From contig OY751490.1 of NCBI GenBank assembly GCA_963565915.1, forward strand, positions 4,092,001 to 4,156,000: a stretch of 64,000 nucleotides of DNA. The letters are read 5' to 3'. Of this stretch, positions 4,667 through 63,599 are shown piece by piece. Each line of letters opens with the position of its first letter. The first letter of the stretch is position 1. The notes beneath the pieces are model-generated. The model did not search any database, had not been told where the DNA came from, and was given only the letters and a program-made list of their open reading frames with translations. Source of the stretch: Entoloma clypeatum. Its lineage: Eukaryota; Basidiomycota; Agaricomycetes; Agaricales; Entolomataceae. The position numbers were made by a program, and so were the translations under genes.

Positions 4667-6213
4667 CTATTCTTGAAACGGTTGGAATCAGAAGATGTGG
4701 TACAAATGCAGATGTTCACGGAGGAACAATTCTTTGAAGGGGGTGAAATATCTGATTCCATCAAAATTGGAAATGTCACGACCATCGAAAATCCGTGGAT
4801 CACATGCATCAAGGGTTCAAACCACATGGAGACAGAAGTAGCCCAGGGTCTAAAGAAGAATCCTCATTGGTATCAGCAGGAGAATGGGATCACCTATGCA
4901 GGAGAATGGGATCACCTATGCAGGAGAATGGGATCACCTATGCAGGAGAACGAGTCTATGTCCCGCCAGATCCACAATTATGACAAGAATTGATGTTTGA
5001 GTCACACGATGCACCAGTGGCTGGACATCCAGGACAGTACTGGACACATGAACTCCTCACTCACACCTACTGGTGGCCTACTATCCTGCATGACATGAAG
5101 AAGTATGTAAAGGGTTGTGACACCTGTCAATGCAACAAGATCAACAGACAGAAACGACACGCTCTGCTACATCCCCATGCAGCACCAAGTCATCCATGGG
5201 AAGACATAGGGATTGACGCCGCGGGACCAATACCAGAGTCCGATGGAAAGAATGCGATTCTGGTCATCACAGATAGACATTCGAAGATGCTCCATCTCAT
5301 TCCGACAATTGTGGAATTATCAGCTGAGGGATTAGCCAAGATCTATCGGGATCAGATATGGAAGCTTCACGGGATCCCCAAGAAGATCATCAGTGATAGG
5401 GGACCACAGTTCACTGTGAAGTTCATGGAGATACTCTGCCGCATGTTAGGGATCAAGAGGAACCTGTCCACTGCATACCACCCACAGACTGATGGACAGG
5501 CCGAGCGATCACATCAGGAAACGGAAGCATTCTTACGAAACTTTGTCAACCATCTACAGGATGATTGGGCTGAATGGATCACAATCGCAGAGTTCCAGTA
5601 CAATGACAAAGAACATCAGGCGATGAAGCACACCCCATTCTACCTCAACTACGGTTTACATCTGTGGAAGGGAGAACTTGTGTTAGAAGATACCAATCCG
5701 GCTGCCAACAACTTCTTGAAAAAACTCAAACAGGCACGAGAAGAAGCCAATGCTGCGCTGAAACAAGCACAGGATCAGATGAAGAAGACAGTTGACACAC
5801 GGCAAAGCCCGTCTTGGGACTACCGCATCGGAGACAAGGTGTGGCTGGAAGGGACTAACATCAGGACCGATCGACCCTCAAAGAAACTTGATGCACTCCG
5901 ACATGGACCATTCAAAGTCCTAGAGAAGAAAGGAGCTAGCGCGTACCTTCTTGATCTTCCGAAGACTTGGAAGATGATTCACCCTGTGTTCAACGAGACC
6001 CTGTTGTCACCATATGAAACTCCGAAGTACGCCATCCAGAAAAAGAAACCAGCCACTGATCCAATCATTGTTGAAGGACGAGAAGAGTACCATGTGTCTA
6101 CGATCCTGGACTCTCGAAAGTTCCGCGGAAAGATCCAGTACCTCGTCCAGTGGGAAGGATATGGCCCAGTTCAGAACACTCAAGATTTGATCCGTGATTT
6201 CCATCGGCAGAAG
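4667..6213 (+). mobile_element. B1: 3'-truncated fragment of family B element
   Basis: This stretch matches B3 pol from its 24447 region to its 25975 region (end of RNase H linker, integrase, most of the chromodomain). It is interrupted on the left by element A. On the right it switches abruptly, within a few bases of 6212, to family B sequence on the other strand (B2). Compared with B3 it has lost about 30 bp in the chromodomain near 6168 and has gained a 22-bp triplication near 4880. Confidence 0.85.
4667..6213 (+). pseudogene. Integrase/chromodomain part of B1 pol (broken)
   Basis: The frame LFLKRLESEDVV.. runs from 4667 and is shifted by the 22-bp repeats near 4877. The integrase part is open again from 4990 to about 6220. 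Visible parts are the HHCC zinc finger (GHPGQY, then CDTCQ), the DDE core (GIDAAGP; SDRGPQF; GQAERSH) and a chromodomain start (VEGREEYHVSTILDSRKF). The end of the chromodomain is deleted and fused to unrelated codons from the opposite-strand fragment, so no functional product is expected. Closest relative in the window is B3 pol. Confidence 0.85.
4877..4942 (+). repeat. 22-bp unit repeated three times in B1 pol
   Basis: The unit starting caggagaatgggatcacc occurs at 4877, 4899 and 4921, followed by a partial fourth. B3 has a single copy at the same place. Two extra units add 44 nt and break the reading frame. Confidence 0.95.
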
Positions 6214-8820
6214 AATTGCATTTTTTCCATCAGATTCTGGTATCGGTCCTACGACGTCGATTCCTATGTCTTCCCATGGGTGACTTGGTGCTGCATGGGG
6301 ATGTAGCGGAGCATGTCGCTTTTGTCAGTTAATCTTGTTGCGTTGACAAGTGTCACAACCCTTCACGTACTTCTTCACATCGTGCAGTATGGTAGGCCAC
6401 CAGTAGGTGCGAGTGAGGAGTTCATGTGTCCGGTACTGTCCTGGATGTCCAGCCACTGGTGCATCGTGTGACTCAAACATCAATTCTTGTCGTAATTGTG
6501 GATCTGGCGGGACATAGACTCGTTCGCCTGCATATGTGATGCCGTTTTCCTGTTGATACCAATGAGGATTCTTCTTTAGACCCTGCGCTACTTCTGTCTC
6601 CATGCGGTTCGAAGCCTTGATGTGTGCGATCCATGGGTTTTCAATGGTTGTGATGTTTCCAATTTTGATGGAATCAGATGTTTCACCCCCTTCAAAGAAT
6701 TGTTCCTCTGTGAACATCTCCATTTGTACCACATCTTCTGATTCCAACCGTTTCAAGAATAGTCCCTCCTTGAGCATTTGGTCACTGTCCTGTGGTTCGA
6801 GTTCCGCTTCATACCAGGGTAAGCATGACAGGATGTCTGCTTTTGCATTGGTCTTGCCGGGCACATGCCGTAATTCAAAGTCATAGTCTTGTAACTTCAT
6901 TTTCCAGCGTCGCTGTCGTTGATTCAGGTCCTGAGGACGACGGAAATATTCCAGGTTCTTGTGATTGGTCAAGATTTCAAAATGTTCCCTGGCTTCGAGC
7001 AGATAGTGTCTTCAATCTTTTAATGCTTTCACGACCGCCAGGAGTTCTTTGTCATATATCTCGTAATTCTATTCGGCCGCGGACATGGTCCGCGACAAGA
7101 ACACGATGGGGTGCCATTTGTCGTCTTGCTTCTGAGAGAGTACTGCTCCAATTGCATAGCCCGATGCATCGGTTTCAACCCTGACCTGTCCCTCTGGTTT
7201 CGGTAATGCCAAGACTGGTGCCGATGTAATTGCCCGTATGAGACCTTCAAAAGCTTGCTGCTCTGTTGGTCCCCAAGTAAATGCCGTACCGCCTGTGAGG
7301 GCGGTGAGAGGTTTCGCGATGTTTGAGTACCCTTCAATAAAACGTCGATAGAAGTTAGCAAATCCAAGGAACTTCTGAACTTCCTTTTTTGATGTGCGTG
7401 CTCGCCAGTTTTGAATTGTATCCACCTTCTCAGTTTCCATCTCAACACGTCCCTCACCAACCACGTATCCCAATATAGGACATTTCGTTACTTCCCATAA
7501 ACACTTCTTCTCCTTTAGGAACAAATCATTGTCTGATAGGATCTGTAGAATTTCTTTGGTGTTTCATGCGAGTTCTTCCTTGGTTTTACCGATAACCATG
7601 ATGTCATCCATGTAGATCACGCAGATACATCGGCGGATCTGGTCCCGGAATAGACTAGCCATCATTCGAGAGAATGTTCCCGGGGAGTTGCAAAGACCGA
7701 AAAACATGACCAATGGTTCAAACAATCCTCGACTGGTGAGGAAGGCAGCTTTCCATTCATCGCCCTCCTTAATCCAGAGGTTGTTATAGCCCCACATGAT
7801 GTCCATTTTATTGAAGTAGACTGCATCTTTCAGCACATCCAAGAGATCAGATATTCGTGGGAGTGGGAACTTGTCTTTGACCATGAATTTATTGACCATG
7901 CGGTAATCTTGTACCAATTGTTTGGAGCCATCCTTCTTGTTGATGAAGAAGCAAGGGGAGGCATATGGGGATTTGGATGGGCAGATCTTTCCTGTTGCTA
8001 GACCCTCATCAATGAATGCGTCCAATTCCTCTTGTTCCTTTTGCATCATAGGATATGTATTTCCCCCTAGTTCCTTTGGTGTGTCCGGTGTAAGTTCAAT
8101 ACCATGGTCCCATTCCCTCTCCTTTGGGATCTTATCGAAGTTCTCTTTTTCAAAGAGATGAGCAAATCGTTCAACATATGAGGGTCGTTTGGTTGTGGGA
8201 GGTGGTGTGGGAGTGACAGCTTCCAAAATAGGGTCTCCAGGCTTCCATTTCTGATCCGACTTTTTGGGTGCATCTTTGTCGCGCACCTCAACCATGCGAA
8301 CCCGGTGTTTGCAACCATTAAGGTTAATTCTAAAATCCGAGTGTTTGGTTCGACATGTTGTTGGGCACCGGTTAAATGTTACCGCGCCGGTTGTCCAATT
8401 GATTGTGGGGTTGTGGTGCACCAACCAGTCATGTCCCAAGAGCATGTCCGTTCTCCCAATGTCCAGTACCATTGCTTCCATGGTTTCCTGATGTGCTCCC
8501 AAATCCAGTTTGACTTCGGCAAGTTGGCTTGCTTTCTGTTGTCAATTTGGTGATCCATCCGCATTTAGAATTGCTATGGGCGGTATTCCTCGCGTGGGGA
8601 GGTTCTGTTCGCGTACTATTCTGGGATGGATGCATGTGCATTCACATCCGCTGTCAACCTCAGGTCGGATAACCTTTGGCCCTCGTCGTGTCCTGAGCTG
8701 AGCTAACAGCCTGATTTCTCGTCTTTTCGGAGGTTTATCTCCCTTCACAATCTTAGTCGACGCAGCGGCTCGCTTGGCAGGGATGACATATTTTCTATTG
8801 TCTGCAGTCATACAAGGCAA
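6213..8820 (-). pseudogene. pol of B2 (protease, RT, RNase H, start of integrase; broken)
   Basis: Open pieces are at 8542-8820 and 7564-8502 (protease with DSGCECTCIH, then RT to the YMDD box), 7069-7524 (RT end, RNase H start) and 6325-6972 (RNase H end, integrase zinc finger). They are separated by a frameshift near 8535, an in-frame TGA just after the YMDD block (7564-7566) and two further breaks near 7010-7070. The TGA after EELA is at exactly the position where B3 also has TGA. The order and sequence follow B3 closely, so this is a decayed copy rather than a host gene. Confidence 0.87.
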
Positions 8821-32102: not shown

Positions 32103-32393
32103 GTATTTCCCTCTTAGGGTCGAACCCTGAGGCCCAGATGAGGTAATCCACATGACCATTGGTTGAAGTCACCAAACCACAACATCTATCCCGTCGCCTA
32201 TCCGCTATGTCCGCTGAGACCTCACCCCTTGCCGCTCTTCGTGCTGAAAGGGAGCGCCAGAAGAAGGTCACCAAAGAGTTGGAGAGGAAGCTGCAGGAGG
32301 CAGAGGAGTGCGCGGAGGCAAAAAGGGCGGCGAAAGAGCAGAGACGAGCAGAGAGGAAGGCAGAGAAAGCGAAGGCGAAGGAACCGGTTATGA
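32103..32393 (+). repeat. Extra partial copy of antisense-gene leader and start in C1
   Basis: Leader plus first 63 codons (ATG 32207, MSAETSPLAALRAERERQ to stop at 32396) are present before the full gene at 32486. The two copies differ, for example the second has an extra segment before caccaaccac, and here CGA is intact where the full copy has TGA. C2 has only one copy, so this is a tandem duplication or recombination with another family member. Confidence 0.75.
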
Positions 32394-32485: not shown

Positions 32486-33471
32486 ATGTCCGCTGAGAAC
32501 TCACCCCTCGCCGCTCTCCGTGCTGAAAGGGAGTGCCAGAAGAAGGTCACCGAGGAGTTGGAGAGGAAGCTGCAGGGGGCAGAGGAGCGCGCGAAGGAAG
32601 ATGCAGAGCGCACAGAGGCAAAAAGGGCGGCAAAAGAGTGGAGATGAGCAGAGAGGAAAGCAGAGAAAGCAAAGGCGAAGGAGCCAGTTCCGGGTGCGGG
32701 TGCAGATGCAGATGCAGATGCGGCAAATGCGGAGGTGAAGAAGATCCAGCTGCAGGGGGCTTTCAAGGATATGCCTGCGAGTTACGAGCAGGGGAAGCAG
32801 GATTGCACCTCCTGCTTGAAAGTGGGGGACTTGTGTTTTTTGCCATCAGAGTGAGTTTTTTCTATTTCTTTATACGCTTCGTTATTAACTTGTTCTTTAG
32901 GAATGACAACACTTCGTCGTGCTGGCAGTGCCAGCGTTTAAAACGAAGCTGCAGAACGGGAGCGGAAGCGGAGTCAGAGGTGAAGCGGAGGATGACCAAG
33001 GCAGTGAGGGTCGGAAAGGCTAAGGTGGCAGGTGGTGCGACGAAGAATGCGAAGACGGGATCGTCCAAGGGAGAGGGGACCACAGAGGGATCATGGATAG
33101 CCGCAGCGTTGGAGGAGCCAGAGTTCATGCCAGAGGGGTTTGGTCCGCCGGAGGTGGTCATAGGCACAGAGGTGGTGAGAGGGCTTAGGAGCATGATAAG
33201 GGAGATGGGCTGATAAAGGCGGAGTTGAAGGAACTGCGGGAGATCAAGGAGCTTTTGACGGTTATCGTGTGGAGGGAGGATTCGGAGGCTTCGGAGGAGG
33301 GATCCGACGAGGACGAGGATGTGGAGGAGTATGATAGGGTATTGGAGGAGTTGGCAAAGGAGGTAGAAGAAGAAGAAGAAAAGAAGAAGAAACAAAGAAG
33401 CGGAAGAGGAATCCGGATCGGAGTGGAATGAGGAGACGGAGGGGGTATCTAACAAAAAACAGCGAAAGTAG
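32486..33471 (+). pseudogene. Antisense Zn2Cys6-like gene of C1 (broken)
   Basis: Located between pol and the 3' LTR, opposite strand to gag-pol, converging with pol (pol stop at 33517). Exon 1 is 32486-32850, the 50-nt intron gtgagt..ctttag is 32851-32900, exon 2 is 32901 to TAG 33469-33471. The product starts MSAENSPLAAL, has a long charged coiled coil, then CTSCLKVGDLC - 11 residues - CWQCQRLKRSC, which fits CX2CX6CX5-12CX2CX6-8C, the fungal Zn(II)2Cys6 DNA-binding signature. The intron lies in the loop. An acidic region and the tail SNKKQRK follow. It is inactivated by TGA at 32645 (codon 54, CGA expected), a one-base loss near 33211 and another shift near 33410. The same lesions are in C2. 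Confidence 0.75.
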
Positions 33472-33516: not shown

Positions 33517-36500
33517 TTACAAGCATGATAAAGGGCCTGGCTTGGTTGGTTGAGCGGAGTGGAAGTCCGCTACCGTATCCGCTGCGTGTTCAAGAGGATG
33601 CGGGTAACCAAGAAAACTCTTCACTGGTGTCTTCATAACCTAACCAGCGGACGAGGTAAAGGAGTTTGCATCGTTGTCTTTTATCGATCTTTGAGTCGAC
33701 AATTTCTGCAATTTCATATTCGGTTTCTCCTTCGATCTCGAGCGGAGGCGGAGGAGATTGTATCTGATTTGGAATCTTGTTAGGAGTTGCTGGTTCGAGC
33801 ATGGATATGTGGAAGACGAGGTGTATAGCATGCATAGTAAGGAGTGCGTGCCAGGTTGGGCTATGATTTCAAATGGGCCAGCATATTTGTCGGATAACTT
33901 TTGGGTGGGTCATGTGGTGCGGAAGAACTTGGCTTTAACAAAGACTTCTTGTCCGACGCGGAGAACATTGGACGTCCGCAGGGCCTTGATAACGTTGTTG
34001 TGCCTCTGCGACAGCAGTCTTTAGTCCTTGATGTAATTCATCTAAGTCAACGATGTATTGTCGAGCTTTATCGGATGCTAGATCACGTTCCGGATGGAGT
34101 GTAATGTCGGGATGATAACCTTTGTTGGCGAAGAATGGTGATACACCAGTAGTGGCACTCAGAGTGTTGTTGTAAGTGAACTCTGCAAGCGGAAGCAAAG
34201 CGGACCAGTTGTCTTGCTGGTAGTTGCAGAAGATGCAGAGGTATTGTTCAAGTGTTTGGTTGGTGCGTTCGGTTTGACCATCGCCTTCAGGGTGATATCC
34301 AGAAGTGAAGTGAAGTCTCATGTCGAGGGCTTTTGCAAGAGAGCGGAAAAAGCTGGAGACAAATTCAGGTCCGCGATTGGATGTGACATTTTGCGGAACT
34401 CCATGCTTGGAAAAGACATGAAGCACGAAAAGGTTTGCTAGGTCTTCGGATGTGCAATTAATGGTGGTAGGGATGAAGATGCCTTGTTTAGTGAGGCGGT
34501 CTACAATGACCAGAATCACATCGGAGCCAGTGGATGTTGGAAGGGGTTCAATGAAGTCAATGGAAATAGAATGCCAGGGATGTTCAGGAATAGGGAGTTG
34601 TTTAAGCAGACCGTAGGGTTTATGACGTTGGGGTTTGGCGCGCATACAAGTGGTACATGACTTGCAATACTTTTTGATGAAGTCGCGCATTCCAGGCCAA
34701 GTGTATTCTTGTTGGATAAGACTAATAGTCTTTATTCTGACCAGGGTGTCCAGCGAGGATATGGTCGTGCTTATTGCGGAGGATGCAGAGACAGAGGTTG
34801 GATGAGTTGGGAACATAGATACGTCCATTGTGGAGTAGATAACCTGCTTCATTCACAATCCAGCATGGATTAGGATTGTCAAGGAAAGAGGTGTAAATGG
34901 GATCGGTCGGAAGAGCGGAGAGGATGTCGGAGCGGAGCTGATCCGTATCCATAATGATTGTGGCACAGAGGACGGGCATATATAACTCTGTTGCGTGAAG
35001 TGAAGTGGTGAGCTGTTCTTGTGTGAAGATGGGTTTGAAGTTGCTTGGATTGATGGATGAATAGTCGCTATTTCCCTCTTTAGGGTAGACATCCCATCGT
35101 CTACTTAAAAGATTGGGCTTCGTACCTAAACGGCCAGGGCGGAAGCGGATGACGAGATTGAACTGGCAGAGGTATTCGGACCAACGAGCTTGTCGATGTG
35201 ATAAAATCTTGGTAGTAGAAAAGTACTCAAGATTTTTGTGGTCCATTATGACATCGATCGGAGCAGCGGAGCCTTCAAGGTAGTGACGCCAAACCTTGAA
35301 TGCATCATGGATCGCTAATAGTTCTTTGTCGTGGGTGTCATAGTTTAACTCGGGAGGTGTAAAGGTGCGGGAGTGGAAAGAGACCGGATGGATTCCGTCG
35401 TCGGAGGTGCAGATGGAGAGGATCACACCCAAAGCATAGTCGGAGGCATCGGTTTCGACAATAATAGGGCTGTCAGGAATCCAATGCGTAAGAACAGGTG
35501 CCGTGGTAAAGGCTTTCTTCAAAGTTTTGAAAGATTTGCGAGCAGAATCGGAGAAGTGCCATTGTGTGTTTTTGCAGGTGAGTTGGGTGAGCGGAACAGT
35601 GATTTTGGAGTAGTAAGGAATGAATCGACAATAAAAATTGGCAAAACCTAAGAAAGATTGAATATCTTTGACCTTCCTTGGTTCAGGCCAATCTTGAATA
35701 ATTTTGACTTTCTTATCCGACATGCAGAGGCCTGTCGTGTCGGAGAGAGGATAAAGCCAAGGTATTCAACAGTATCTGTAGAAAACTCGCATTTGTCTGC
35801 GCGCACGTATAAGCCATGTTGTCGGAGACATCGGAGGACTTTGCGGACATGCTTCCAATGCTCGGAGGGAGAGTCGGAGTAGATGAGGATGTCGTCAAGA
35901 TATATGGTAACATACTTATTGAGCAGGTCGTGGAAGATGTCATTCATGAAGCGTTGAAAAACAGCTGGGGAGTTGGTGAGTCCAAATGGCATGACAAGCC
36001 ATTCAAAAGACCCGTAGCGCATGCGGAAGGCGGTTTTCCATTCATCTCCTTCTGCTATGCGGACGAGGTGCTAGGCATGTCGGAGGTCGAGAGCCGTATA
36101 AACACTGGCTTTTCCAGCGGTCTGGAGAAGGTCGGATATGAGCGGAAGCGGATATCGGTCCTTCTTTGAGATTTTATTAAGACCACAGAAATCGACGCAA
36201 AGACGAAGGGAGCCATCCTTTTTATGAATGAAAAGGACGGGAGCACTGTGTGGAGAGGAAGAGGGTCGGATGAATCCAATGGTGAGGTGTTCGTCAATGA
36301 ATTCACGGAGGGCATTGAGTTCGGTTTGTGAAAGGGAGTAGATCGGACTGAACGGAGGAGCGGAGCCCTCTTCAAGTTCAATCTTGAGGTCATAGGGACA
36401 GTGTGGTGGAAGAGTGTCTGCTTTTCCTTTACTGAAGATGTCAGCATAGTCGTGGTATTCCTTGGGTACATTTGTCAAGTTGGGGGTGTCGGAAGCGGAT

Positions 36501-37584: not shown

Positions 37585-38570
37585 CTACTTTCGCTGTTTT
37601 TTGTTAGATACCCCCTCCGTCTCCTCGTTCCACTCCGATCCGGATTCCTCTTCCGCTTCTTTGTTTCTTCTTCTTTTCTTCTTCTTCTTCTACCTCCTTT
37701 GCCAACTCCTCCAATACCCTATCATACTCCTCCACATCCTCGTCCTCGTCGGATCCCTCCTCCGAAGCCTCCGAATCCTCCCTCCACACGATAACCGTCA
37801 AAAGCTCCTTGATCTCCCGCAGTTCCTTCAACTCCGCCTTTATCAGCCCATCTCCCTTATCATGCTCCTAAGCCCTCTCACCACCTCTGTGCCTATGACC
37901 ACCTCCGGCGGACCAAACCCCTCTGGCATGAACTCTGGCTCCTCCAACGCTGCGGCTATCCATGATCCCTCTGTGGTCCCCTCTCCCTTGGACGATCCCG
38001 TCTTCGCATTCTTCGTCGCACCACCTGCCACCTTAGCCTTTCCGACCCTCACTGCCTTGGTCATCCTCCGCTTCACCTCTGACTCCGCTTCCGCTCCCGT
38101 TCTGCAGCTTCGTTTTAAACGCTGGCACTGCCAGCACGACGAAGTGTTGTCATTCTTAAAGAACAAGTTAATAACGAAGCGTATAAAGAAATAGAAAAAA
38201 CTCACTCTGATGGCAAAAAACACAAGTCCCCCACTTTCAAGCAGGAGGTGCAATCCTGCTTCCCCTGCTCGTAACTCGCAGGCATATCCTTGAAAGCCCC
38301 CTGCAGCTGGACCTTCTTCACCTCCGCATTTGCCGCATCTGCATCTGCATCTGCACCCGCACCCGGAACTGGCTCCTTCGCCTTTGCTTTCTCTGCTTTC
38401 CTCTCTGCTCATCTCCACTCTTTCGCCGCCCTTTTTGCCTCTGTGCGCTCTGCATCTTCCTTCGCGCGCTCCTCTGCCCCCTGCAGCTTCCTCTCCAACT
38501 CCTCGGTGACCTTCTTCTGGCACTCCCTTTCAGCACGGAGAGCGGCGAGGGGTGAGTTCTCAGCGGACAT
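37585..38570 (-). pseudogene. Antisense Zn2Cys6-like gene of C2 (broken)
   Basis: Mirror copy of the gene at 32486-33471: ATG 38568-38570, TGA at 38409-38411 in the coiled coil, intron with GTGAGT donor, cysteine cluster CX2CX6CX11CX2CX6C, tail KKQRK with TAG at 37585-37587. It shares the premature TGA and the exon 2 frameshifts with C1, so the lesions came before the inverted duplication. The intron acceptor reads ttaag here instead of ttag. Confidence 0.72.
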
Positions 38571-40043: not shown

Positions 40044-40177
40044 ACTGAAATGATGTCTGTGTTACCTTCCCATCCTGTTTTATGGGGGAAGTAATGAGAT
40101 TTAATTTGAGAAATATAAGACTCAAGGTGTTCACAGTTGGTTAGCGAAACATGCAGATCAGAGAGAGTTGGAGAACA

Positions 40178-40713
40178 GTTGGGCACAAGAGGCGGCCGTT
40201 GGGCTTGAAGGAAGAGTGTTGCACACAAAGGGAGGGTGTTGCATGCAAAAGGAGGGCATTGGCGCAAGTTGGAGGGCAGTACACATGAAGGAAGGGCGTT
40301 GGGCGCCAGTGGACGCTGTTGGGCGCTAGAGGGGGCCGTTGGGCGTGGGGGCAGTTGGGCATAAAAGGGGGCCGTTGGGCACCGGTCGCGGCAGTTGGGC
40401 ACAAGAGGCGGCCGTTGGGCTTGAAGAAAGGGTGTTGCATATGAAAGGAGGGTGTTGCACACGAAGGAAGGGTGTTGGATGCCAGTGGATGCCGTTGGGC
40501 GCTAGAGGGGCCATTGGGCACGAAGGGATGCTGTTGGCGTGAAATGGGGTGTCAGACACAGGTCATGGCAGTTGGGCACGAGGGGGGACAGCTGTTGGGC
40601 TCAAATGGAGGGCATTGGGCGCGACTGGATGCCGGTCAGCACGAAAGAGGGCCGTTGGGTGCTAGAGGGGCCCATTGAGCATGAATGGTGGCTGTTGGGC
40701 GGAAGTGGTGGCC
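40178..40713. repeat. 20-bp minisatellite, about 27 units
   Basis: Degenerate units of mostly exactly 20 bp that begin gttgggc or attgggc. A block of units (gttgggcacaagaggcggcc, then gttgggcttgaag.., gttgcac.., gttgcat..) recurs about 11 units later, so there is higher-order structure. G-rich on this strand. Long frames on either strand here are by-products of the periodicity. Confidence 0.9.
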
Positions 40714-50552: not shown

Positions 50553-51262
50553 GCAGTGGTAGTGGTTGGTTGGTAGGTAGGGAGGAGGTGGTAGTGGTGG
50601 TGGTTGTAGTAGTAACCTCTAACCCCGCCAGTCTCAGATAACATTCAACGCCAGATCACGCGATCATGCACCCCAAAAATCTAAATTATTTATGACCCAA
50701 CGTTGATGTCCCGTTGACAGACGCGTCTTGTGCGCAAATCCCATGACTCTCCCGCCACAGCCCACGTCAAGCCCCCTCCACAATGGGGCAACGTCGACTC
50801 ACGAGCCTCGGTCACGCACACGACGTACATAGAAATGTACGGCATAAGTAATCGATTCAATTATGATCATGATCATCTCAATTCAATCCCCCACTTCCTT
50901 GGCACGTCACCCCTTCCCCGGAACTCACTTGACCCACACAGCCTAACCTCATCCTATCATCCTATTTATTTACTTCCAGCCGTCCCAAAATCGAAACAAC
51001 AATATGTATATGTATGATCACCACCGCCGCCACCACCACCACCCGGAAAATCGAAGTCAGCCCGCAGAACAAAAAAAGGTCGATTTGACTCCAACTCTGG
51101 CTGGACACCGCCGAGCCTGACGCGCTGACGGCACGATCCCCATCCGTCACTTCCGAGACCGCCGCCAAAATCGTGATTGAAGCAACATCAGCATTTCGGC
51201 ACTTTCAGCTTATAGCATCTTACAGCTTATGAAAGCAACCTTTACAGCTAATCGCAAAACTA
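50553..51262. other. Upstream region of the phosphatase gene
   Basis: No gene recognised. Holds the presumed promoter of the minus-strand phosphatase gene: a ccaccactaccacc-type tract (minus) next to the start codon, and cacc/gccacc repeats near 51020-51042. No TATA box was evident close to the start. Confidence 0.5.
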
Positions 51263-51978
51263 TGGCAACAGAACCTGGACTGCCCCCTTTTTGATTAGCG
51301 GCAGGGTCCATATTGATTGATGAAGGATCAGCCGACAAACATGCCGGCTGACTAATAACAAACAACGCGTCGTCTCCATCAATTGGCCTCATTGACCACA
51401 AAATCATGTATCTCGGGCCATCCAATGGGTGGATTGCTTTCATATTTTGTATCCTCAATCTCAATTAAATAATACATTATATGCATTTTACAAAAGAGCA
51501 ATGTTTATTTCAACTCATGTAGGTATATATCCTGCAACTGCCAAAAAGTGAAAAAAGCGCACCTTATATTGCACTACAACCAGAAGGCCTATACCTAATA
51601 TCTTTGTAGTCCTTATTTGAAACATAAATGAGGTGTGTCTTTTGTGAAAGGAATATGGCAGAAAATGTTTAGATGAACTGATCCAGCTATGTCTTCTGAT
51701 TGCCCCAAAAATAATGATGCACACTTCATATCATCAGAACTGTGGAACCATTGCCTCTCATATTCTGCCACTGTAGATAATATATATAGAAGATGTATTT
51801 CGCTGAAGGAATAAGTGAGAAAATGCCTAGATCTATTTCTAGAGGTATATGCTTTCAACCACCTGTATTTCCAAATATGCACCATATTCCAGCAAAGGCA
51901 TGGAGAATATCCCTCTGACCTTTAGACCCTCTTAGATTTGAAGTATATGAGATAATATTGACCAAAGGAATAAGGTGG
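51263..51978 (+). repeat. Left inverted-repeat arm
   Basis: About 716 bp, near-identical to the reverse complement of 52884-53420 where that is sequenced. Confidence 0.8.
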
Positions 51979-52883
51979 AGTATATATGTAGACTATTTTA
52001 TGAGAATTCTGTCCAGTCAAGTATTCTCCATCTACAATACACATCATGAAAGTGTTGGAAAGGGGCAAGAGAACAAATCTACCTCATATAAAAGACTCAT
52101 ATCAATCTTATGGAGTGAGAGAGGCTGGATGTTTGTGAATGATACAGGTGCCAACATGAGACAGTTTGCAAGTACCCATAGGCTAATACCTCAACTAATG
52201 TGTCCAACATCATATCTTGCAGTCAGCTGTCCACCCTCCACATAATTATGTGGAATCTTCTGTATATGCTAGATATGTGATCTCTCACCTCTTTCCAGCA
52301 ATCTGGTTATATGTATATAGTCCAATTCTGATAGATGGAGAGTACTTGTCTTGAGGAGAGCATCAGCAAATCTACACAAATCTTGTGACCTTGTCAGCTT
52401 GTCAAAGTGGCCAATGGACAGAACTCTGCAAAGGTGTTGTATAAGACACAGAATAATTTTGAGCTTTTAAATCTCATTCTATGAGTTGTCTTTTATAATG
52501 AAAAATGAAAAGTGAAGGGGATTTTACCAGATTTGCTTCACACGAGATCAGCACAACAATTTAGCCCTTGTGAGTCATCCAAAAGGTAATCCCTTATTCT
52601 GTGCATCAAATGGGATGTATTTGTGGCCTATCCAATAGCCCTGACCACATAGCATCCAAAACTGACTATAAGGAAGTTGTGGAAGCTGCCTTCTCTATAA
52701 TTGACAGTTTTACTCATGGGAGTTGGTGGCCAATCTTGTGGGGCTCATTGGATCGCAACTCAGATGCACTCGTTTTGGCTCGTTGATGCTCATATGAGCT
52801 CCCAGGAGTAAAATGTAGGTTCGCTGATGGATATGTAAGGACATACACTCATAAAGTAGTTTGCAGACATTATCCTCATTCCT

Positions 52884-53420
52884 TTGGTCAATATTATATA
52901 CTTCAAATCTAAGAGGGTCTAAAGGTCAGAGGGATATTCTCCATGCCTTTGCTGGAATATGTGCATATTTGGAAATACAGGTGGTTGAAAGCATATACCT
53001 CTAGAATAGATCTAGGCATTTTCTCACTTATTCCTTCAGTGAAATACATCNNNNNNNNNNNNNNNNNNNNNNNNNNNNNNNNNNNNNNNNNNNNNNNNNN
53101 NNNNNNNNNNNNNNNNNNNNNNNNNNNNNNNNNNNNNNNNNNNNNNNNNNNNNNNNNNNNNNNNNNNNNNNNNNNNNNNNNNNNNNNNNNNNNNNNNNNN
53201 NNNNNNNNNNNNNNNNNNNNNNNNNNNNNNNNNNNNNNNNNNNNNNNNNNCCACCCATTGGATGGCCCGAGATACATGATTTTGTGGTCAATGAGGCCAA
53301 TTGATGGAGACGACGCGTTGTTTGTTATTAGTCAGCCGGCATGTTTGTCGGCTGATCCTTCATCAATCAATATGGACCCTGCCGCTAATCAAAAAGGGGG
53401 CAGTCCAGGTTCTGTTGCCA
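52884..53420 (-). repeat. Right inverted-repeat arm with assembly gap
   Basis: Complement of the left arm. 537 positions including 200 N. From the left arm about 350 bp should fill the gap, more than the placeholder length. Confidence 0.75.
53051..53250. other. Assembly gap (200 N)
   Basis: Exactly 200 undetermined bases, a fixed-size placeholder, located inside the inverted repeat. Confidence 0.99.
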
Positions 53421-54084
53421 TACAAAATGATAGACCCAATTTCACTTTTTCGGTGCACAGGGACCGTGTTTAGTTGTGGAGCCGGGACAAATAAGGTATC
53501 CGCATTTGGCTGCCAGCGGAGTCAGGGTGTTGTGAGAGCACCTCGACATCACGATATGATGGTACCATAGACCTGCCAAACAGGTGTGGTATGGCAGCTC
53601 CATAGGCCTGGATTTGGCTCTAACCCACACACTGCCAATAATAACTCAAATAATCCTAGATTTAACTTATTAAGAAAACCCCCAAGATCATAAGCTCCCC
53701 ATCAGTTCTCTTTGCTCCGTTTGGAATGCGGCTGCCAGCCATCAGCGCTCTCTGCAATAAGTCCCCAGCCCATCATCCCGACCCATCTAATGCTCACCCG
53801 TCATTGAAGTGTTGCCAACTTCGCTCCCATGCCGCTCCCATCCATCAATCCCTTCTGAACGGCTCCTCCCCTCGTTAGATGGCCCTCCTGTTATATCCAT
53901 CTCCAAATCTCTGATCCACTCCGATATTCCTCTGACATTCCGGACATCCATTACCTCCGCATCTCCGCACATTGCCATCGTGCATTTCATATTCATAACT
54001 CCATGCCTTTATGCATTTCATATTCATATTCCCGTTTACTTATGCATCACCTTTTCCACATGGTCCATTGACTGACATCTCCGA

Positions 54085-54651: not shown

Positions 54652-55133
54652 TGTTAAGAACTGATCGACAAAAACGTCGGAGCTACGTCGGACGCGTCAG
54701 AGGGTCGGAGCGTGGTCGGAGCATGTGCGACGTAGGGGCAAGGACTTGGCTTCAACTTGTGTGTTGCGCCCTTGCCAATACATTGGTGTCCTTATTTCAG
54801 AGGATCAGAGGTCAGACTCAAGTTAAGAGTTGGAAAGAGGACGGGAGGTAAGATGTCGAATCTAAGTTGATATTCAAACTGAAGCTAATACATGATTCTA
54901 CATAAGTTTAAATACTATGTCGGAGGACGTGTGGCTTCGTCAGAGTCAGATAACAAGTGGCTGTTGGAGATTCTTAACATAAGTAAAATGGTTGGATGTA
55001 AGTAATGTACATAGTAACGAGATTCATAACAGTAAGTATGCATAATAAGTATTAGTCAAAATGTCAGAGGTGTCGGAGGTGTCGGAGGTGTCGGGATTGG
55101 TCGGAAATCATTGGAATTGATCGGAATGTAACA
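54652..55133 (-). repeat. 3' LTR of D1
   Basis: 482 bp with ends tgttaagaac and gaatgtaaca (plus strand). Contains three to four 9-bp gtgtcggag units near its internal end (55063-55096). Differences from the other LTR are almost all C/T or G/A changes at CpG. Confidence 0.9.
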
Positions 55134-55298
55134 GTATTTCCCCCTTAGGGCCGAACCCATGAGGCCTAAGGACCTAGGTGGTCGGTGTGCGTGAACTGCA
55201 TCATGTGATGCATTGGTTGAAAATACCGTCTGAGTGGTTCTTTCTTCTTGTTCCCCCATTCTCTTTCCGTTTCAAAACTCTTCCGAAAAAACCTCAAT

Positions 55299-56252
55299 AT
55301 GTCAGCAACCGATTTTCAAAAGGAGATGGAGGCGCTGCAGGCTAAGCTCGCGGAGGTGGAGGCGAAGAAGCGAGCAGTGGAGGAGGAGGCTGCAAGGAAG
55401 GCTGAGGAGGAGCGGAGAGCGGAGGAAGAGAGGGCTGCGGAGGCAGTGCAGTTAGCGGAGGAGATGCGGGTAGCGGAGGAGATGCGTCAGGCGTCAGAGC
55501 TGGCGGCTCAGAAGAGGGCCAATGAAGTGGCCGCTGCGCAAGGCGCGTTGAGCAAGGGGTTGGGGGGGCCGCAGGCGGAGAAGGTGATGAAGAAAAGGAA
55601 GGTAGAGGAGGTGACGGCGACGGTTGGAGAGGGGTCGGGAGTCGGGGTCGGGTTCAGCACCTGTGATAGGTGCATTGTGAAGGGTGTTGAGTGCAAACAC
55701 GATGAGTGAGTTCTTCTTTGGTTCGTCTCTTCTGTTTTAACCTTTTGTTTTAGGAATAAGTCGTCCTGCAAGGGTTATGTAAAAGACAAGAAGAAGTGCG
55801 AGGTCGGAGCATCAGAGGGAAAGTCGGAGGTGACAGAGGTGAAGAAAACGGTGAAAGTGAATAAGGGGAAGAAAAAGGCGTCAGAGATGCCGCCAGAGAG
55901 TGGGTCAGAGGACACCGTCTTGAGTGTCCTCAAGATGATTTTGGCGGAGACCAGGCAGGTGAGGCGACTGCTAACAGCAGTTGAAGGCTCGGTGAACACC
56001 GAGTATCAACCCAAGTTGCCGGAGGTGTCGGAGGAAGGGTCGGAGTTGGAGATGGATATGAGGGAGGAGATGCATGAGTTCAGACTGGAGAAGAGCATCA
56101 CAAGGAGGATTAGGAAGGATATAGTGAATAGGAAAAGGTTGGAGTTGCCGGAGCTGTCGGACGATTCTGACATGTCAATTTTGGAGCTGTCGGAGAAGGC
56201 GGAGTCAGACAAGGAGGAGGGTCCTTCAAACAAGAAACAACGTACTAAGTAG
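55299..56252 (+). CDS. Antisense Zn2Cys6-like coiled-coil protein of D1
   Basis: Intact two-exon gene on the strand opposite gag-pol: exon 1 55299-55705, intron 55706-55753 (GTGAGT..TTTTAG, 48 nt), exon 2 55754-56252; 906 nt, 301 residues. Residues 1-75: Ala/Glu/Lys/Arg coiled coil (MSATDFQKEMEALQAKLAEV). Around 125-155: CDRCIVKGVEC, 8 residues, then CKGYVKDKKKC, a Zn(II)2Cys6-type cluster with the fifth Cys replaced by Tyr, split by the intron. Then Lys-rich and acidic segments, and the tail SNKKQRTK, a possible nuclear signal. A C/T-rich tract (55225-55275) precedes ATG, as at many fungal starts. Its 3' end overlaps the pol end by 27 bp. No stop, in contrast to gag-pol. Suggested role, DNA binding or element regulation, is inferred. 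Confidence 0.78.
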
Positions 56253-59200
56253 ATAGCAATAGTATTTGTTTGAGAGCAACGTGAGCGGACCCAGTTTGTT
56301 GGGATAAGCGGAATGAAAGTCGGAGACAAGCTCGGGGGTGTTTTCCAGTTCATTGGCTGGTAGCCAAGAGAATTCTTCATCAGTGTTTTCATATCCTAAC
56401 CAATGGACAAAATATAGTAGCTTGCAGCTACGTCGTCGGTCGACCTTTGAGTCGACAATTTCAGCAATCTCATACTCAAGTTCTCTGTTGATGTCAATCA
56501 GAGGAGGCGGAGGTTGGGTCCGATTCGGAATGGTGTTCGGAGTTGTGGGTTCAAGCATGGAGACATGGTAGACGGGGTGAACTCCGCGGAATGTGTCGGG
56601 GAGTTGGAGGGTAAAGGAGTGTGTGCCAGGTTGTGCAATGATCTCATATGGTCCCAAGTACTTTTCTGAGAGTTTCTTAGATGAGTGTATTGTGCGGAAG
56701 AACTGTGCTTTAACAAAAACCTGTTGTCCGACAGAGAACATCGGAGCTGTGATCTGATTGTTGTCGGAGGACTTTTGGTAACGTCGTTGAGCGTCGGAGA
56801 TGGTGGATTTCAGTTCTTGGTGAAGTTCGTCTAAGTCGGTCACGAAGAATCAGGCTCGGGAAGAGGCAAGGTCTCGTTCTGGGTGAACAGTAATGTTCGG
56901 ATGGTAACCCTTGTTATCAAAGAAGGGAGATATGCCAGTGGTAGCACTAGGTGCGTTGTTGTATGCGAACTCCGCAATTGGAAGGAGAGCAGACCAGTTA
57001 TCCTGTTGGTAGTTGCAGAATATCCGCAAGTACTGTTCGAGGGTCTGGTTAGTGCATTCAGTTTGGCCATTGCCTTCTGGGTGGTAACCAGAGATGAAGT
57101 GGAGGGTACATGTTCAGAGCCTTTCTGAGAGATCGGACGAATTGGGAGACAAATTCGGGGCCGCGGTCGGAGGTGACATGTTTGGGAACGCCATGTTTAG
57201 AGAAGATGTGTAATACAAAGAGTACAGCAAGGTCTTCGGAGGTGCAGTGAATGGTTGTCGGAATGAAGATACTTTGCTTCATCAATCGGTCAATGATAAC
57301 GAGGATGGAGTCAAAGTTGTCGGAGGTCGGAAGGGTCTCGATGAAATCCATTGAGATAGAATTCCAAGGATGTTCGGGGATCAGGAGCTGTTTGAGTAGG
57401 CTGTAAGGCTTGTGTCTTTGTGGCTTTGATCGCATGCAAGTGGTACATGACTTGCAATAGTGTTTGATGAAATCTCGTATTCCGGGCCAGGTGTAATCAC
57501 GCTGAATGAGACTGAGTGTCTTGTTCTGACCTGGGTGTCCAGCAAGCATATGATCGTGCTTGTGCTGTAGGACTTGGAGTCGGAGGTTGTTGGAGTCAGG
57601 AACATATATCCGATTGTCATGTCGGAGGAAACCATTGGGGTCGAGAGACCAGTGGGGTTTAGGATCTCTAGAAAGAGTGTCGTAAAGAGTGTCGGAAGGG
57701 AGTGCTGTGAGTACGTCATGGTGAAGCTTTTCTGTGTCCATGATAATGGTTGCATGGAGGACGGGCTCAAGGAGTTGAGTCACGCGAACTGAAGCGGAGA
57801 GCTGTTCTTGCGAAAAGACTGGTCGGAGGTTGGTCGGATTGATGTCGACGTAGTCGCTATTTCCCCCTTTAGGGTAGACATCCCAACGTCTAGTTAGAGA
57901 GTCAGGTTTAGTTCCCAATCGGCCGGGGCGGAATCAGATGACGAGGTTGAACTGAGAAAGGTATTCCGACCATCGGACTTGTCGGCATGAAAGAACTTTG
58001 GTGGTGGCAAAATACTTGAGATTTTTGTGGTCGGTAACGACATCAATTGGAGTACCGGAGCCTTCGAGGTAATGGCGCCAAATTTTAAATGCTTCATAGA
58101 TGGCAAGAAGTTCCTTATTGTGGGTGTCATAGTTTACTTTGGGGGCCGTGAAGGTGCGGGAATGGAATGCGATGGGGTGGACTTCATTGTCGGAGGTGAC
58201 TATCGACAGAATAGCCGCTAGGGCATAGTCGGATGTGTCAGTTTCGACAATTATCGGAGAGTCGGGGATCCAGTGTGTCAGGATCGGAGCGGTGGTAAAT
58301 GCCTTTTTCAGGTCATTAAAAGCGGTTCGAGCGTCGTCGGAGAACAGCCAAGTGGCATGTTTCCTGGTTAAATGAGTGAGTGGAATAGTGATGTTGGAAT
58401 AGAATGGAATGAAACGTCGGTAAAAGTTTGCAAAACCTAAAAAGGACTGGACGTCCTTCACTCTGCACGGTTCAGGCCAATCCTGAATAATCTTGACTTT
58501 CGCTTCCGACATTTTGAGTCCGTTGGGAGAAAGGATAAATCCAAGATATTCTACAGTTTCGGCAGAGAAGTCACACTTGTCAGTGCGGGCGTAAAGACCA
58601 TGTTGTTGGAGTTGTTGGAGGACTTCTCAGACATGTTTTTTGTGTTCCTCAGGGTTGTCAGAGTAGATCAGGATGTTGTTGAGGTAAACAGTAATGCAGT
58701 TGTCCAGAAGGGCAGAGAAGATGTCGTTCATGAAATGTTGGAAGGCTGCAGGTGTGTTAGACAATCTGAATGGCATTACTAACCATTCAAATGATCCATA
58801 GCGAGTGCGGAATGCAGTTTTCCATTCATCACCTTCAGCAATGCGGACTAGGTGGTATGCATGTCGGAGGTCTATGGTGGTATAAACACATGCTTTTCCA
58901 GCAGTGGCTAAGAGGTCGGAGATGAGTGGAAGTGGGTATCGGTCCTTCTTTGTGATTTTGTTCAGGCCTCGGTAGTCGACGCATAGTCGGAGTGATCCAT
59001 CTTTCTTTCAGACAAAGAGGATTGGAGCGCCGTGAGGTGAACTAGAAGGTTTGATGAAACCGATATTGAGATGCTCGTTGATGAAGTCTCGGAGGGATCC
59101 AAGTTTGGATTGTGAGAGTGAGTACATTGGACCAATCAGAGGGGAAGTACCTTCCTCCAAATTGATCTTGAGGTCGTACAGTCGGTGGGGTGCAAGGGTG

Positions 59201-59860
59201 TTGGCTTTTTTCTTACTGAATACATCAGCAAAATCGTGGTATTTTTCGGGTATGCCAGAGAGATCAGGAGCATTGTCGGAGACAGACGCGGAATTGGCGG
59301 AGATGTCGGAGAGGTGAACACGGAAAGTGTATGCCCCAGGAGCTTTACATATGCGGCTGGATTGACCATGGTAATATGTGGTGGGTCGGAGGTGTTCAGA
59401 GTGAGTGGATCGGAGGTGCCCATTGGAGAGGGCGGACACTGCAGAGGTGGTGGAGCTGCCTCAGCAGTCGACGTTGGACTCGGACTCAGAGTGTCAGGTA
59501 ACGTAGAATGGAATAAGATACTGCCCAATACCCAGTCAATAAATGGATTGTAGCGGGTGAGCCAGTTGTGTCCTAGAACCAAATTACAAGACAAATCGAG
59601 GGTTGTCACATAAAATGTGACGGTCAGAAGTTCACCGGAAGGGAATCGGAGAGGAAGATCAATAGATTGTGTGATATAAGTATTTGAAGAACCGTCAAAA
59701 AGTTTCAAAACCATAGGTGAAGGAGTCGGAGTCGGAGATAAGTTTAAAGAAGAAATAAATCTGGTATCTGCGAAGCAATGTGTAGAACCAGAATCAATAA
59801 GAATCTTTATTGGAAGATGGTCAGAGATATCAAATCAATACATAGAGAGTTCGGATTTGA
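56226..59860 (-). pseudogene. pol of D1 (broken)
   Basis: Pieces: protease 59136-59830 (LIDSGSTHCFAD), RT 59008-59439 and 58520-59000 with stops, RT end and RNase H 57934-58512 (ETDTSDYALAA; DHKNLKYF), integrase 57058-57918 (GHPGQNKT, CKSCTTC, SMDFIETLP, SDRGPEF), integrase end and chromodomain 56226-56843 (YEIAEIVDSKVDRRRSC; FVHWLGYENTDEEF). Frame breaks near 59010, 58620, 57930, 57110 and 56849. The frame is -1 relative to gag. Same family type as C1 pol. Confidence 0.87.
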
Positions 59861-59952: not shown

Positions 59953-61166
59953 CTATTTTTTTGACTCGGTCGTCTTCTCCAATTTGTCCTCAGCTTGGGC
60001 CACGCGGGCCTTTGCTTTGGCATTAGAAGACAATTTCTTCGAGCAGTCAGAAGCCCAATGACCAACGTTGCTGCAAAACATGCATAAATTATTGTCAAAT
60101 TGTTGTTGGCATTCTTGGGGAGTCAATTTCCCATCTTTGCCAAGTTTGTTGGAGAGGGCGGATTTCAGAGAGGTGGATGATGATTTTTGTTGTTGTTGCG
60201 AGTTGGGTTTAGATGACGAGTTGTTATTGGAGGATGATGAAGCAGGGGTCTGTTTCTTGTCAGATTTGTTGGATTTTGGAGTAGATTTGTCAGAGGAGCG
60301 TGATTTCTCGCGTTGACGTTCCCAGTAGCGAGCATCAATGTTATGGGCCATTATCTTCAACTCGGCCAGAGTCTTAGGTTTGGGGTAGGTCTCTAAAACA
60401 TCTTTGATATGTTCCGCTAAACCGGTATAGTACCAATATTGGAGTGCGCCCCATCCCACTGCATGTGAGCGGAAAGACATTTGAAGTCCACGTTGTAATG
60501 TAGAATCTTCTGATTGTCGCACATCCAAAGGTGATCCAGACTATCCTCTGCTTCTCCAGTCAGATCGATAGGTCCAAATTTGGATCAGAGGATGTGCACA
60601 AAGGCGGACCAGTTGTCCAACCAGACAGAGTCATTGTCGGACTCTCCCAAGAGGGTGGGCTCAAACCATTCGAGCACAGTTCCTCGGAGGTATGACAGAG
60701 CAAAACTGACTTTGTTATCATCGTCGCCAAAGGCGGGGTTGTTTCGGAAATATAGTGTGCATTGTGCGAGGAAACTGGTGAGTTTCTGAGAGTCAGAACC
60801 GTCAAAAGTGTCAGGTTCCTTCAACTTCTTTTTTGGAGTCTTTGGAGTCTCTCTACGTCGGAGCTCCTGTGTCATAAGCATGATTGCTTCGGCGAGGTTT
60901 GGAGTTTGCTCGCGACGGAAAGGATTGTTATCGTCAAAAGGAGAGGTCGGAGATTTAAAAGGACGGGATTCTTCAGGAATCGGAGGTCCTTGTGTCTGAG
61001 GTGTTCAAAGACGAGGTGTCAAAGATGTGGGGTCAGGTTTGGGTGCAGATTCTTCTGCAGGAAAATCTTGGAACATATGTAGAAATGTCACCCTGGTGTC
61101 CTGCAGGTTTGATGCTTCCGCTGCGGCTGCTGCTGCATGGGAGTTCTGAGTGTTGCAGGCTGCCAT
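59953..61166 (-). pseudogene. gag of D1 (broken)
   Basis: ATG 61164-61166 (MAACNTQNSHAAAA), an in-frame TGA near 61005, the retrotransposon Gag capsid region at 60585-60881 (DGSDSQKLTSFLAQCTLYF), a break near 60560, then 59953-60528 with capsid end, Ser/Asn/Lys-rich linker and one zinc knuckle CMFCSNVGHWASDC. Ends ESKK, TAG 59953-59955. Confidence 0.85.
59956..59962 (-). promoter_or_regulatory. Putative -1 frameshift heptamer A AAA AAA (family D)
   Basis: Gag frame TCA AAA AAA TAG, with the slip site abutting the stop codon. The -1 frame continues ATA GTA AGC AGT into the protease region. Same context as in family C (37161-37167). Confidence 0.6.
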
Positions 61167-61212: not shown

Positions 61213-61673
61213 TGTTAAGAACTGATCGACAAAAATGTCGGAGCTATGTCGGACACATTGGAGGGTCGTCGGGTCAGAGTGTGTGCAACGTAGGGGCAAG
61301 GACTTGGCTTCAACTTGTGTGTTGCGCCCTCGCCAATACGTTGGTGTCCTTATTTCGGAGGATCAGAGGTCGGACTCAAGTTAAGAGTCGGAAAGAGGAC
61401 AGGAGGTAAGATGTCGAATCTAAGTTGATATTCAAACTGAAGCTAATACACGATTCTACATAAGTTTAAATACTATGTCGGAGGACGTGTGGCTTCGTTG
61501 GAGTCGGATAACGAGTGGCTGTTGGAGATGCTTAACATAAGTAAAATGGTTGGATGTAAGTAATGTACATAGTAACGAGATTCATAACAGTAAGTATGCA
61601 TAATAAGTATTAGTCAAAATGTCGGAGGTGTCGGAATTGGTCGGAAATCGTCGGAATTGATCGGAATGTAACA
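61213..61673 (-). repeat. 5' LTR of D1
   Basis: 461 bp, same orientation as 54652-55133, shorter mainly because it has fewer 9-bp units. TATTTAAAC on the minus strand near 61470 is the best TATA-like word. Confidence 0.9.
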
Positions 61674-62229: not shown

Positions 62230-62645
62230 TGATTGCACAACCTGGCACACACTCCTTTACCCTCCAACTCCCCGACACATTCCGCGGAGTTCACCCCGTC
62301 TACCATGTCTCCATGCTTGAACCCACAACTCCGAACACCATTCCGAATCGGACCCAACCTCCGCCTCCTCTGATTGACATCAACAGAGAACTTGAGTATG
62401 AGATTGCTGAAATTGTCGACTCAAAGGTCGACCGACGACGTAGCTGCAAGCTACTATATTTTGTCCATTGGTTAGGATATGAAAACACTGATGAAGAATT
62501 CTCTTGGCTACCAGCCAATGAACTGGAAAACACCCCCGAGCTTGTCTCCGACTTTCATTCCGCTTATCCCAACAAACTGGGTCCGCTCACGTTGCTCTCA
62601 AACAAATACTATTGCTATCTACTTAGTACGTTGTTTCTTGTTTGA
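62230..62645 (+). pseudogene. Chromodomain end of D2 pol
   Basis: An open frame of 138 codons: VHPVYHVSMLEPTTPN, YEIAEIVDSKVDRRRSC, FVHWLGYENTDEEF, ending LGPLTLLSN..FLV. Corresponds to the last part of pol. Upstream pol is missing, so it has no start of its own. Confidence 0.75.
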
Positions 62646-63599
62646 AGGACCCTCCTCCTTGTCCGACTCCTCCTTGTCTGACTCCGCCTTCTCCGACAGC
62701 TCCAAAATTGACATGTCAGAATCGTCCGACAGCTCCGGCAACTCCAACCTTTTCCTATTCACTATATCCTTCCTAATCCTCCTTGTGATGCTCTTCTCCA
62801 GTCTGAACTCATGCATCTCCTCCCTCATATCCATCTCCAACTCCGACCCTTCCTCCGACACCTCCGGCAACTTGGGTTGATACTCGGTGTTCACCGAGCC
62901 TTCAACTGCTGTTAGCAGTCGCCTCACCTGCCTGGTCTCCGCCAAAATCATCTTGAGGACACTCAAGACGGTGTCCTCTGACCCACTCTCTGGCGGCATC
63001 TCTGACGCCTTTTTCTTCCCCTTATTCACTTTCACCGTTTTCTTCACCTCTGTCACCTCCGACTTTCCCTCTGATGCTCCGACCTCGCACTTCTTCTTGT
63101 CTTTTACATAACCCTTGCAGGACGACTTATTCCTAAAACAAAAGGTTAAAACAGAAGAGACGAACCAAAGAAGAACTCACTCATCGTGTTTGCACTCAAC
63201 ACCCTTCACAATGCACCTATCGCAGGCGCCGACCCCGACTCCCGACCCCTCTCCAACCATTGCCGTCACCTCCTCTACCTTCCTCTTCTTTGTCACCTTC
63301 TTCTTCCTCTCTGCCTGCAGCCCCCCCGACCCCTTGCTCAACACACCTTGCGCAGCAGCCACTTCATTGGCCCTCTTCTGAGCCGTCAGCTCTGATGCCC
63401 AATGCATCTCCTCCGCTAACCGCACCGCCTCCGCAGCCCTCTCTTCCTCCGCTCTCCGCTCCTCCTCAGCCTTCCTCACAGCCTCCTCCTCCTCAGCCTT
63501 CCTCGCAGCCTCCTCCTCCGCTGCTCGCTTCTTTGCCTCCACCTCCGCAAGCTTAGCCTGCAGCGCCTCCATCTCCTTTTGAAAATCGGTTGCTGACAT
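62619..63599 (-). CDS. Antisense Zn2Cys6-like coiled-coil protein of D2
   Basis: Intact second copy: exon 1 63181-63599, intron 63133-63180 (48 nt, same site as D1), exon 2 62619-63132; 933 nt, 310 residues. Compared with D1 it has extra AEEEEAVRK-type and DKEES repeats and lacks a few residues before ASEL and around the Gly-Val linker; every length change is a multiple of three. Cluster CDRCIVKGVEC / CKGYVKDKKKC is identical, including the Tyr. It overlaps the pol end by 27 bp in antisense. The two copies with open frames next to decayed gag-pol suggest that the protein is maintained. Confidence 0.78.

Follow-up and report, generated by a model that had tools for sequence, protein, structure and literature searches.

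Ty3/gypsy chromoviruses of the basidiomycete Entoloma clypeatum carry an intron-containing gene which lies on the strand opposite gag-pol, between the end of pol and the 3′ LTR, and encodes a protein with a charged N-terminus and a cluster of six cysteines. Such genes are present in three families (C, D and E), are under purifying selection in two of them (D and C), and within D have exchanged their C-terminal module between lineages. They were followed from a window of 64,000 nt, the whole stretch of DNA analysed, into the 60.08-Mb host assembly that contains it and on which the searches were run. The initial annotation, which described the gene in families C and D, was borne out and a third chromovirus family, E, also has one. 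Selection appears to keep the gene intact, suggesting that these elements encode a regulator of their own.

In the window, the gene at 55299–56252 (+) belongs to D1, a D element read on the minus strand. The element runs from a 5′ LTR (61213–61673, −) through a broken gag (59953–61004, −), in which Pfam recognises DUF4939 (capsid-like) and, below cut-off, a CCHC knuckle, and a broken pol (56226–59834, −) with reverse transcriptase (RT), RNase H, integrase, a Tf2-1-like SH3 domain and a chromodomain, to a 3′ LTR (54652–55133, −) matching the LTR of the full-length element L049 at 91%. The integrase zinc domain scores above the Pfam cut-off and the integrase core (rve) below it. The succession of RT, RNase H, integrase and then chromodomain, together with the LTRs and polypurine tract, identifies the D elements as Ty3/gypsy chromoviruses. 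D1 is an old copy, since its gag and pol are split into several frames; no matching target-site repeat was found at D1. A pattern scan located its polypurine tract, AAGGGGGAAATA, at 55135–55146 (−), adjoining the 3′ LTR, and the antisense gene therefore sits inside the element, as had been claimed on the same grounds. The same tract adjoins the LTR in L049 and in a second full-length element, L050. Coordinates and LTRs likewise agree with the proposed position, antisense to gag-pol and flanked by pol and the 3′ LTR; the D1 pol frame passes its usual stop, giving a tail-to-tail overlap of 27 nt with the antisense gene. Copies of these tracts also occur inside pol: AAGGGGGAAATA is found a second time at window position 57867 (−) and at sense positions 4589 of L049 and 4613 of L050, while the C-family pol at 35078 (−) contains AAGAGGGAAATA, the C 3′ polypurine tract. 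These internal tracts are possibly central polypurine tracts which change between families together with the 3′ tract.

The leader of the antisense gene (55147–55298, +) is a putative promoter region and includes CATGTG at 55202–55207. CATGTG or CACATG occurs in the 180 nt before the antisense start codon in all 17 D leaders compared (the kept D copies other than L043, 17 of 18) and also in the single aligned leaders of C (L056) and E (L059). It is a possible promoter or binding site.

The D1 gene extends from an ATG at 55299 to a stop at 56252 and encodes 301 aa. Exon 1 (55299–55705) includes the charged N-terminus, coiled-coil-like by eye, a KKRKV basic stretch and Cys1–Cys3; the 48-nt phase 2 intron (55706–55753, GTGAGT...TTTAG) falls in the Cys3–Cys4 loop; and exon 2 (55754–56252) includes Cys4–Cys6, the C-terminal part, an acidic tail and the terminal SNKKQRTK. 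Length, MSA start, intron and tail are as initially annotated. D proteins share this order (charged N-terminus, KKRKV, cluster, C-terminal part, acidic tail, SNKKQRTK), and their N-terminus probably forms a coiled coil, judging from the sequence by eye. The D1 cluster, intron included, spans 55662–55799 (+) and has a tyrosine in place of Cys5. A second D gene in the window, D2 (62619–63599, −; intron 63133–63180), is open after splicing for 310 aa and has the same replacement. The cluster is reduced to five cysteines in both window D copies, while all six cysteines are present in 16 of the 18 intact D copies, the window copies being the two exceptions. These 18 were kept from gene models at 42 loci (L009–L048 and the two window copies), the other 24 being excluded for a broken frame, a wrong locus, the lack of a model (L041, L044) or an uncertain start (L018, L037).

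The D cluster has the form CX2CX6CX8CX2CX6C, with x10 in some divergent copies. That of C is CX2CX6CX11CX2CX6C; it was seen in the window, with its 50-nt intron at the same place as in D, at 32207 and 32486 (+) and at 38570 (−), in agreement with the initial annotation. The C gene is otherwise as claimed, but its window copies are broken and intact ones lie elsewhere in the genome: the gene at 32486–33471 (+; intron 32851–32900) carries an in-frame stop and a frameshift, has its start partly duplicated at 32207 (+), and has an inverted near-identical copy at 37585–38570 (−). Four of eight C loci were kept, L055, L057 and L058 being mis-spliced or broken and L052 near-identical to L051. In E, the loop is x10 with a 51-nt intron, or x13 if an alternative 42-nt intron is used. 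The intron is in phase 2 in all cases computed (directly for D and E, from exon-1 lengths for C) and measures 48–56 nt (48, 49, 50, 52 or 56) in the kept D copies and 50–51 nt in intact C copies. A charged N-terminus, a six-cysteine cluster and an intron in the Cys3–Cys4 loop are common to C, D and E. Other repeats in the window include a 172-nt inverted repeat, 100% identical, with a middle of about 1.8 kb (51261–53422; 200 N at 53051–53250) and an array of GTTGGGC-like units with 20-nt spacing (40176–40678).

Searches of the assembly gave at least 158 matches for D exon 1, 152 for D exon 2, 154 for the C protein and 151 for E exon 2. Each search scored 150 candidates, making the counts of places lower bounds, and one gene may match repeatedly, the C query spanning both exons. 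Among the listed exon-1 matches, 134 of 150 contain no stop. Among the best 150 of 2279 candidate pol 3′ ends, a convergent gene exon lies within 1.6 kb downstream of pol in 139 (127 of 138 D-type and 12 of 12 E-type), the count registering an exon match on the opposite strand and not gene intactness. Two faulty entries in the short exon-1 list leave this count unchanged, one being unreadable and skipped, the other a region start at a position represented by an exon-2 entry too. Where the pol frame is at least 900 aa long, a gene exon is found alongside in 31 of 32 cases among the same best 150 of 2279. Eleven of the 150 pol ends are without a listed gene exon; the one inspected, C10:935057, is the 32nd long-pol element, and there the gene is present but has lost approximately residues 50–250. 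Near-intact elements have the gene; its consistent absence from them, named in the initial annotation as the observation that would overturn the claim, was not encountered. The deletion at this locus (L061, C10:935600-936799) leaves a short in-frame protein beside a pol frame of 1303 aa, perhaps an altered form of the gene or else simply decay.

The same arrangement is seen in L049, a young full-length element with 476-nt LTRs that are 100% identical, a target-site duplication CCGAT, a gag frame of 424 aa, an overlapping pol frame of 1245 aa (stop to stop) and then an intact antisense gene whose end is separated from the pol stop by a 27-nt gap. Family E was traced via pol copies just 68–69% identical to D1, and its gene structure is that of one copy, L059, in which a pol 3′ end is accompanied by an antisense gene of the same plan that starts with MPQ, not MSA. 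This gene is probably frameshifted near its 3′ end, because another frame (minus strand, frame 1) ends in KKAKTQ.

Purifying selection acts on the gene in D and C. Calculated by NG86 between intact D copies, its dN/dS is 0.17–0.55 over the pairs printed. In nine D pairs it is 0.21–0.44, with none of 1000 bootstraps reaching 1 in any pair; the two shifted frames give 0.71–2.01, two frames of the opposite strand 0.76–2.33 and the third 0.27–0.54, low values which probably stem from shared third positions. The gene frame has the lowest value of all frames in each of the nine pairs. Six C pairs, computed for the gene frame alone, give 0.24–0.28. Choosing copies by their open frames, which retained 18 of 42 D loci and 4 of 8 C loci, biases the sample towards intact ones; this alone would not produce a low dN/dS. 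Between L049 and D1, pol has a dN/dS of 0.28–0.30, and gag one of 1.07, D1 gag being broken, a value that goes against the reading adopted here. Two features of antisense accessory genes in this position (aORF-3R), presence in most copies and conservation like that of gag-pol, are both seen here, with 139 of 150 pol ends accompanied by the gene and a dN/dS like that of pol. A chance open reading frame was rejected given the 134 of 150 exon-1 matches without a stop and a dN/dS well below 1 and lowest in the gene frame. The gene dS between the window copy WD1 and L030 (0.243) is about twice the pol dS between WD1 and L049 (0.10–0.13), and the histories of gene and pol are therefore partly separate.

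The C-terminal module has been exchanged between lineages. Over gag and pol, L049 and L050, both full-length, are 96.5–100% identical in 200-nt steps, and they are at least 95.9% identical elsewhere, against 68–91% over sense positions 6138–6737, which correspond to the C-terminal part of the antisense gene. Two gene loci, L029 and L031, are the same genomic copies as L049 and L050, respectively, fetched twice. The gene of L050 (L031) is 98.9% identical to L030, of the first type, over the N-terminal part and cluster, and 68.4% over the C-terminal part; compared with L042, the corresponding values are 89.2% and 97.1%. Since its C-terminal part is near L042 and the rest near L030, the module derives from an L042-like lineage; the pol C-terminus of that lineage shares 78% identity with the D1 one. 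The second type, defined as exon 2 at most 67% identical to D1 and checked in sequence for a few copies, numbers 32 copies, 30 of them with a listed pol: 24 at 85–88% and 6 at 76–81% pol identity.

Whether the cluster is of the Zn(II)2Cys6 type, for which the consensus is CX2CX6CX5-12CX2CX6-8C, was addressed in several ways. The spacing agrees in C (x11), D (x8/x10) and E in its 51-nt intron form (x10), and departs from the consensus in the two window D copies, where Cys5 is a tyrosine. The Pfam profile Zn_clus never reached its cut-off of 21 bits, scoring 13.6, 9.5, 13.0, 16.0 and 10.5 bits, mostly with excised pieces; the best of these, 16.0, is that of the excised C cluster. Pfam did not list Zn_clus for the full-length D1 protein, two other D proteins, the E protein or P0001, a homologue from Trametes gibbosa considered below. 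For the excised E cluster, ADD_DNMT3 was the better-scoring profile (15.9 bits against a cut-off of 26; Zn_clus 10.5), and Pfam scans of the proteins found no fungal transcription-factor domain above cut-off. A PDB search with a natural six-cysteine D cluster returned five sequences, four of GAL4 and one of PPR1, at non-significant E values of 1.2–5.1; in the three alignments displayed the cysteines line up. Three cysteine-preserving shuffles also returned five sequences, none of the GAL4/PPR1 type, one of them an unrelated protein at E 0.27. The C cluster matched one unrelated PDB chain and the E cluster none. GAL4-type domains have characteristic basic residues; here basic residues occur mainly in the second half-unit of the cluster. 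The protein was initially called Zn2Cys6-like, which agrees with its spacing, but with the profile below cut-off and the PDB similarity not significant we speak of a six-cysteine cluster of Zn2Cys6 spacing and treat it as a candidate member of that family. The suggestion that it derives from a host transcription factor gene is not supported so far; the genome search with Zn_clus, with 29 matches, was read exon by exon, a procedure that misses intron-split clusters. A different repeated gene, with a Zn_clus domain above cut-off (CAPCKGAKVRCDFP...), lies beside a rearranged D fragment (L060, C12:77500-79099) and is one of a type found at four places with nearly equal scores, including C13:87257, C12:198951 and C2:3074309.

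On the best reading, the antisense protein is more likely than not a nuclear DNA-binding regulator of the chromovirus lineage. Transcription would start from the gene's own promoter in the leader of about 150 nt beside the 3′ LTR, and the antisense mRNA would be spliced in vivo. As the gene is antisense, its intron would present no splice signal in the genomic RNA and would for this reason survive reverse transcription. The product would enter the nucleus, oligomerise through a coiled coil at its N-terminus, most likely bind DNA through a six-cysteine zinc cluster and contact a partner through a C-terminal module. It would act in trans on the LTR or leader DNA of its own element, or on host chromatin there, and so set element transcription.

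A zinc-, nucleic acid- or protein-binding factor could also serve the replication cycle, through nuclear import, RNA packaging or the choice of integration site together with the chromodomain integrase, and not transcription. The KKRKV-type stretch and the charged, coiled-coil-like N-terminus suit any nuclear role, and the plant antisense proteins are known at most as nuclear in the passages that describe them (PMC7264820). The D cluster is, however, nearer to GAL4 and PPR1 than its shuffles are, a weak argument, and antisense expression would uncouple the dose of the protein from that of gag-pol, more in keeping with a regulator than with a structural component. A replication role is accordingly possible but rather unlikely. 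It is very unlikely that the RNA is what matters (as dsRNA, as a source of small RNAs against the element or through an antisense promoter) and that the protein is a by-product. Functions of this kind are discussed for antisense transcripts in the relevant passages (PMC7264820), but purifying selection in D is strongest in the gene frame and is present in the C gene frame, the cysteines are conserved, and splice sites and tail are conserved in both C and D.

Two explanations that do without an antisense gene of the element were rejected. The constrained frame could in principle be an env-like frame on the sense strand opposite the gene: L049 has a sense frame of 364 aa, the run over the gene span in L029 is 313 aa with a single stop, and one opposite frame has the dN/dS of 0.27–0.54 given above. 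Yet each of the 18 copies has one or more stops across the gene span in all three opposite frames, the longest runs being 313 aa (L029), 255 aa (L033) and at most 209 aa in the other 16; the differing D intron lengths shift these frames; and the gene frame has the lower dN/dS in nine of nine pairs. We regard this reading as highly improbable. A host gene trapped by nested insertion might be suspected in a window full of nested and inverted repeats, but polypurine tract and LTR lie outside the gene, which recurs in three families and at 139 of 150 pol ends, and the young L049, with identical LTRs and a target-site repeat, carries it. This can hardly be the explanation.

It is conceivable, albeit doubtful, that the antisense protein is a trans-acting specificity factor whose cluster reads element DNA and whose C-terminal module, swapped as a cassette between co-resident lineages, sets recruitment or cross-regulation. 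A young subfamily would thereby escape control by its relatives or take over their helpers, in a retroelement counterpart of the swapping of phage immunity modules. These elements offer a test system for the regulation of retroelements by themselves or by one another, set in a fungal genome of 60 Mb as opposed to a large plant genome, with three families, hundreds of matches, selection in two families, a candidate DNA-binding motif, an intron that would be able to persist via the antisense strand and a naturally occurring swap of domains between two young elements.

The one homologue found outside this genome is P0001, hypothetical protein BC628DRAFT_1420029 of Trametes gibbosa, which matched the family profile (a 7-row alignment) at E 2.2e-7. 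A search with D1 alone scored 7993 candidates and one with C residues 95–275 scored 970, neither yielding a homologue. P0001 has the MSA start, charged N-terminal helix, cysteine cluster, C-terminal helix and acidic tail in the same order; its cysteine units are CX2CX6C and CX2CX7C. It differs by one extra cysteine in the loop and is only 24% identical over 34% of the query. A single-sequence model predicts helices at 13–82 and 217–279, each confident over most of its length and one on either side of the cluster, most of which has a pLDDT of about 50 or below.

A comparable zinc-cluster gene in basidiomycete elements was not found in the open-licence PMC literature. Zhao (2011) is said to have worked on brtn of Boty-like elements. 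This gene lies antisense, after pol and before the 3′ LTR, in elements of Botrytis cinerea and Sclerotinia (PMC7264820, PMC8365987, PMC4227169, PMC5987419), whose gag-pol includes a chromodomain (PMC4227169). As described in the relevant passages, and by description rather than by sequence, brtn resembles the gene reported here in belonging to a fungal chromodomain LTR element and in its strand and position, and differs in its ascomycete host. Given brtn of Botrytis, the initial view that no such fungal gene had been described holds, as far as these passages go, at most for the Zn2Cys6 cluster. In plants, antisense ORFs include gene23 of Grande, that of RIRE2 and TRP28 of Retand; a promoter of its own and a nuclear protein are reported for Grande, and DNA binding is predicted for TRP28 (PMC11963269, PMC7264820). 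What the antisense accessory genes of LTR elements do is given as unknown in the passages dealing with them. The plant genes are alike in position, strand and presence in most copies. They are unlike in having TRP28 or SMC domains and no six-cysteine cluster, those passages mentioning no conserved intron, and Retand is of a non-chromovirus lineage. Antisense accessory genes were thus already known; these passages describe no six-cysteine cluster, no conserved intron and no exchange of modules.

Two better-known systems complete the comparison. GAL4/PPR1-type factors share the CX2CX6CX(8-11)CX2CX6C spacing and provide all five PDB matches of the D cluster; the antisense proteins differ in that no match is significant, in their basic residues mainly in the second half-unit and in the long charged N-terminus before the cluster. 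HBZ of HTLV-1 is an antisense, spliced, coiled-coil bZIP regulator encoded near the 3′ LTR of a deltaretrovirus. It is nuclear (PMC11963269). The likeness, an analogy only, lies in the antisense strand, the splicing, the coiled coil and the proximity to the 3′ LTR, with HBZ having a bZIP and no zinc cluster.
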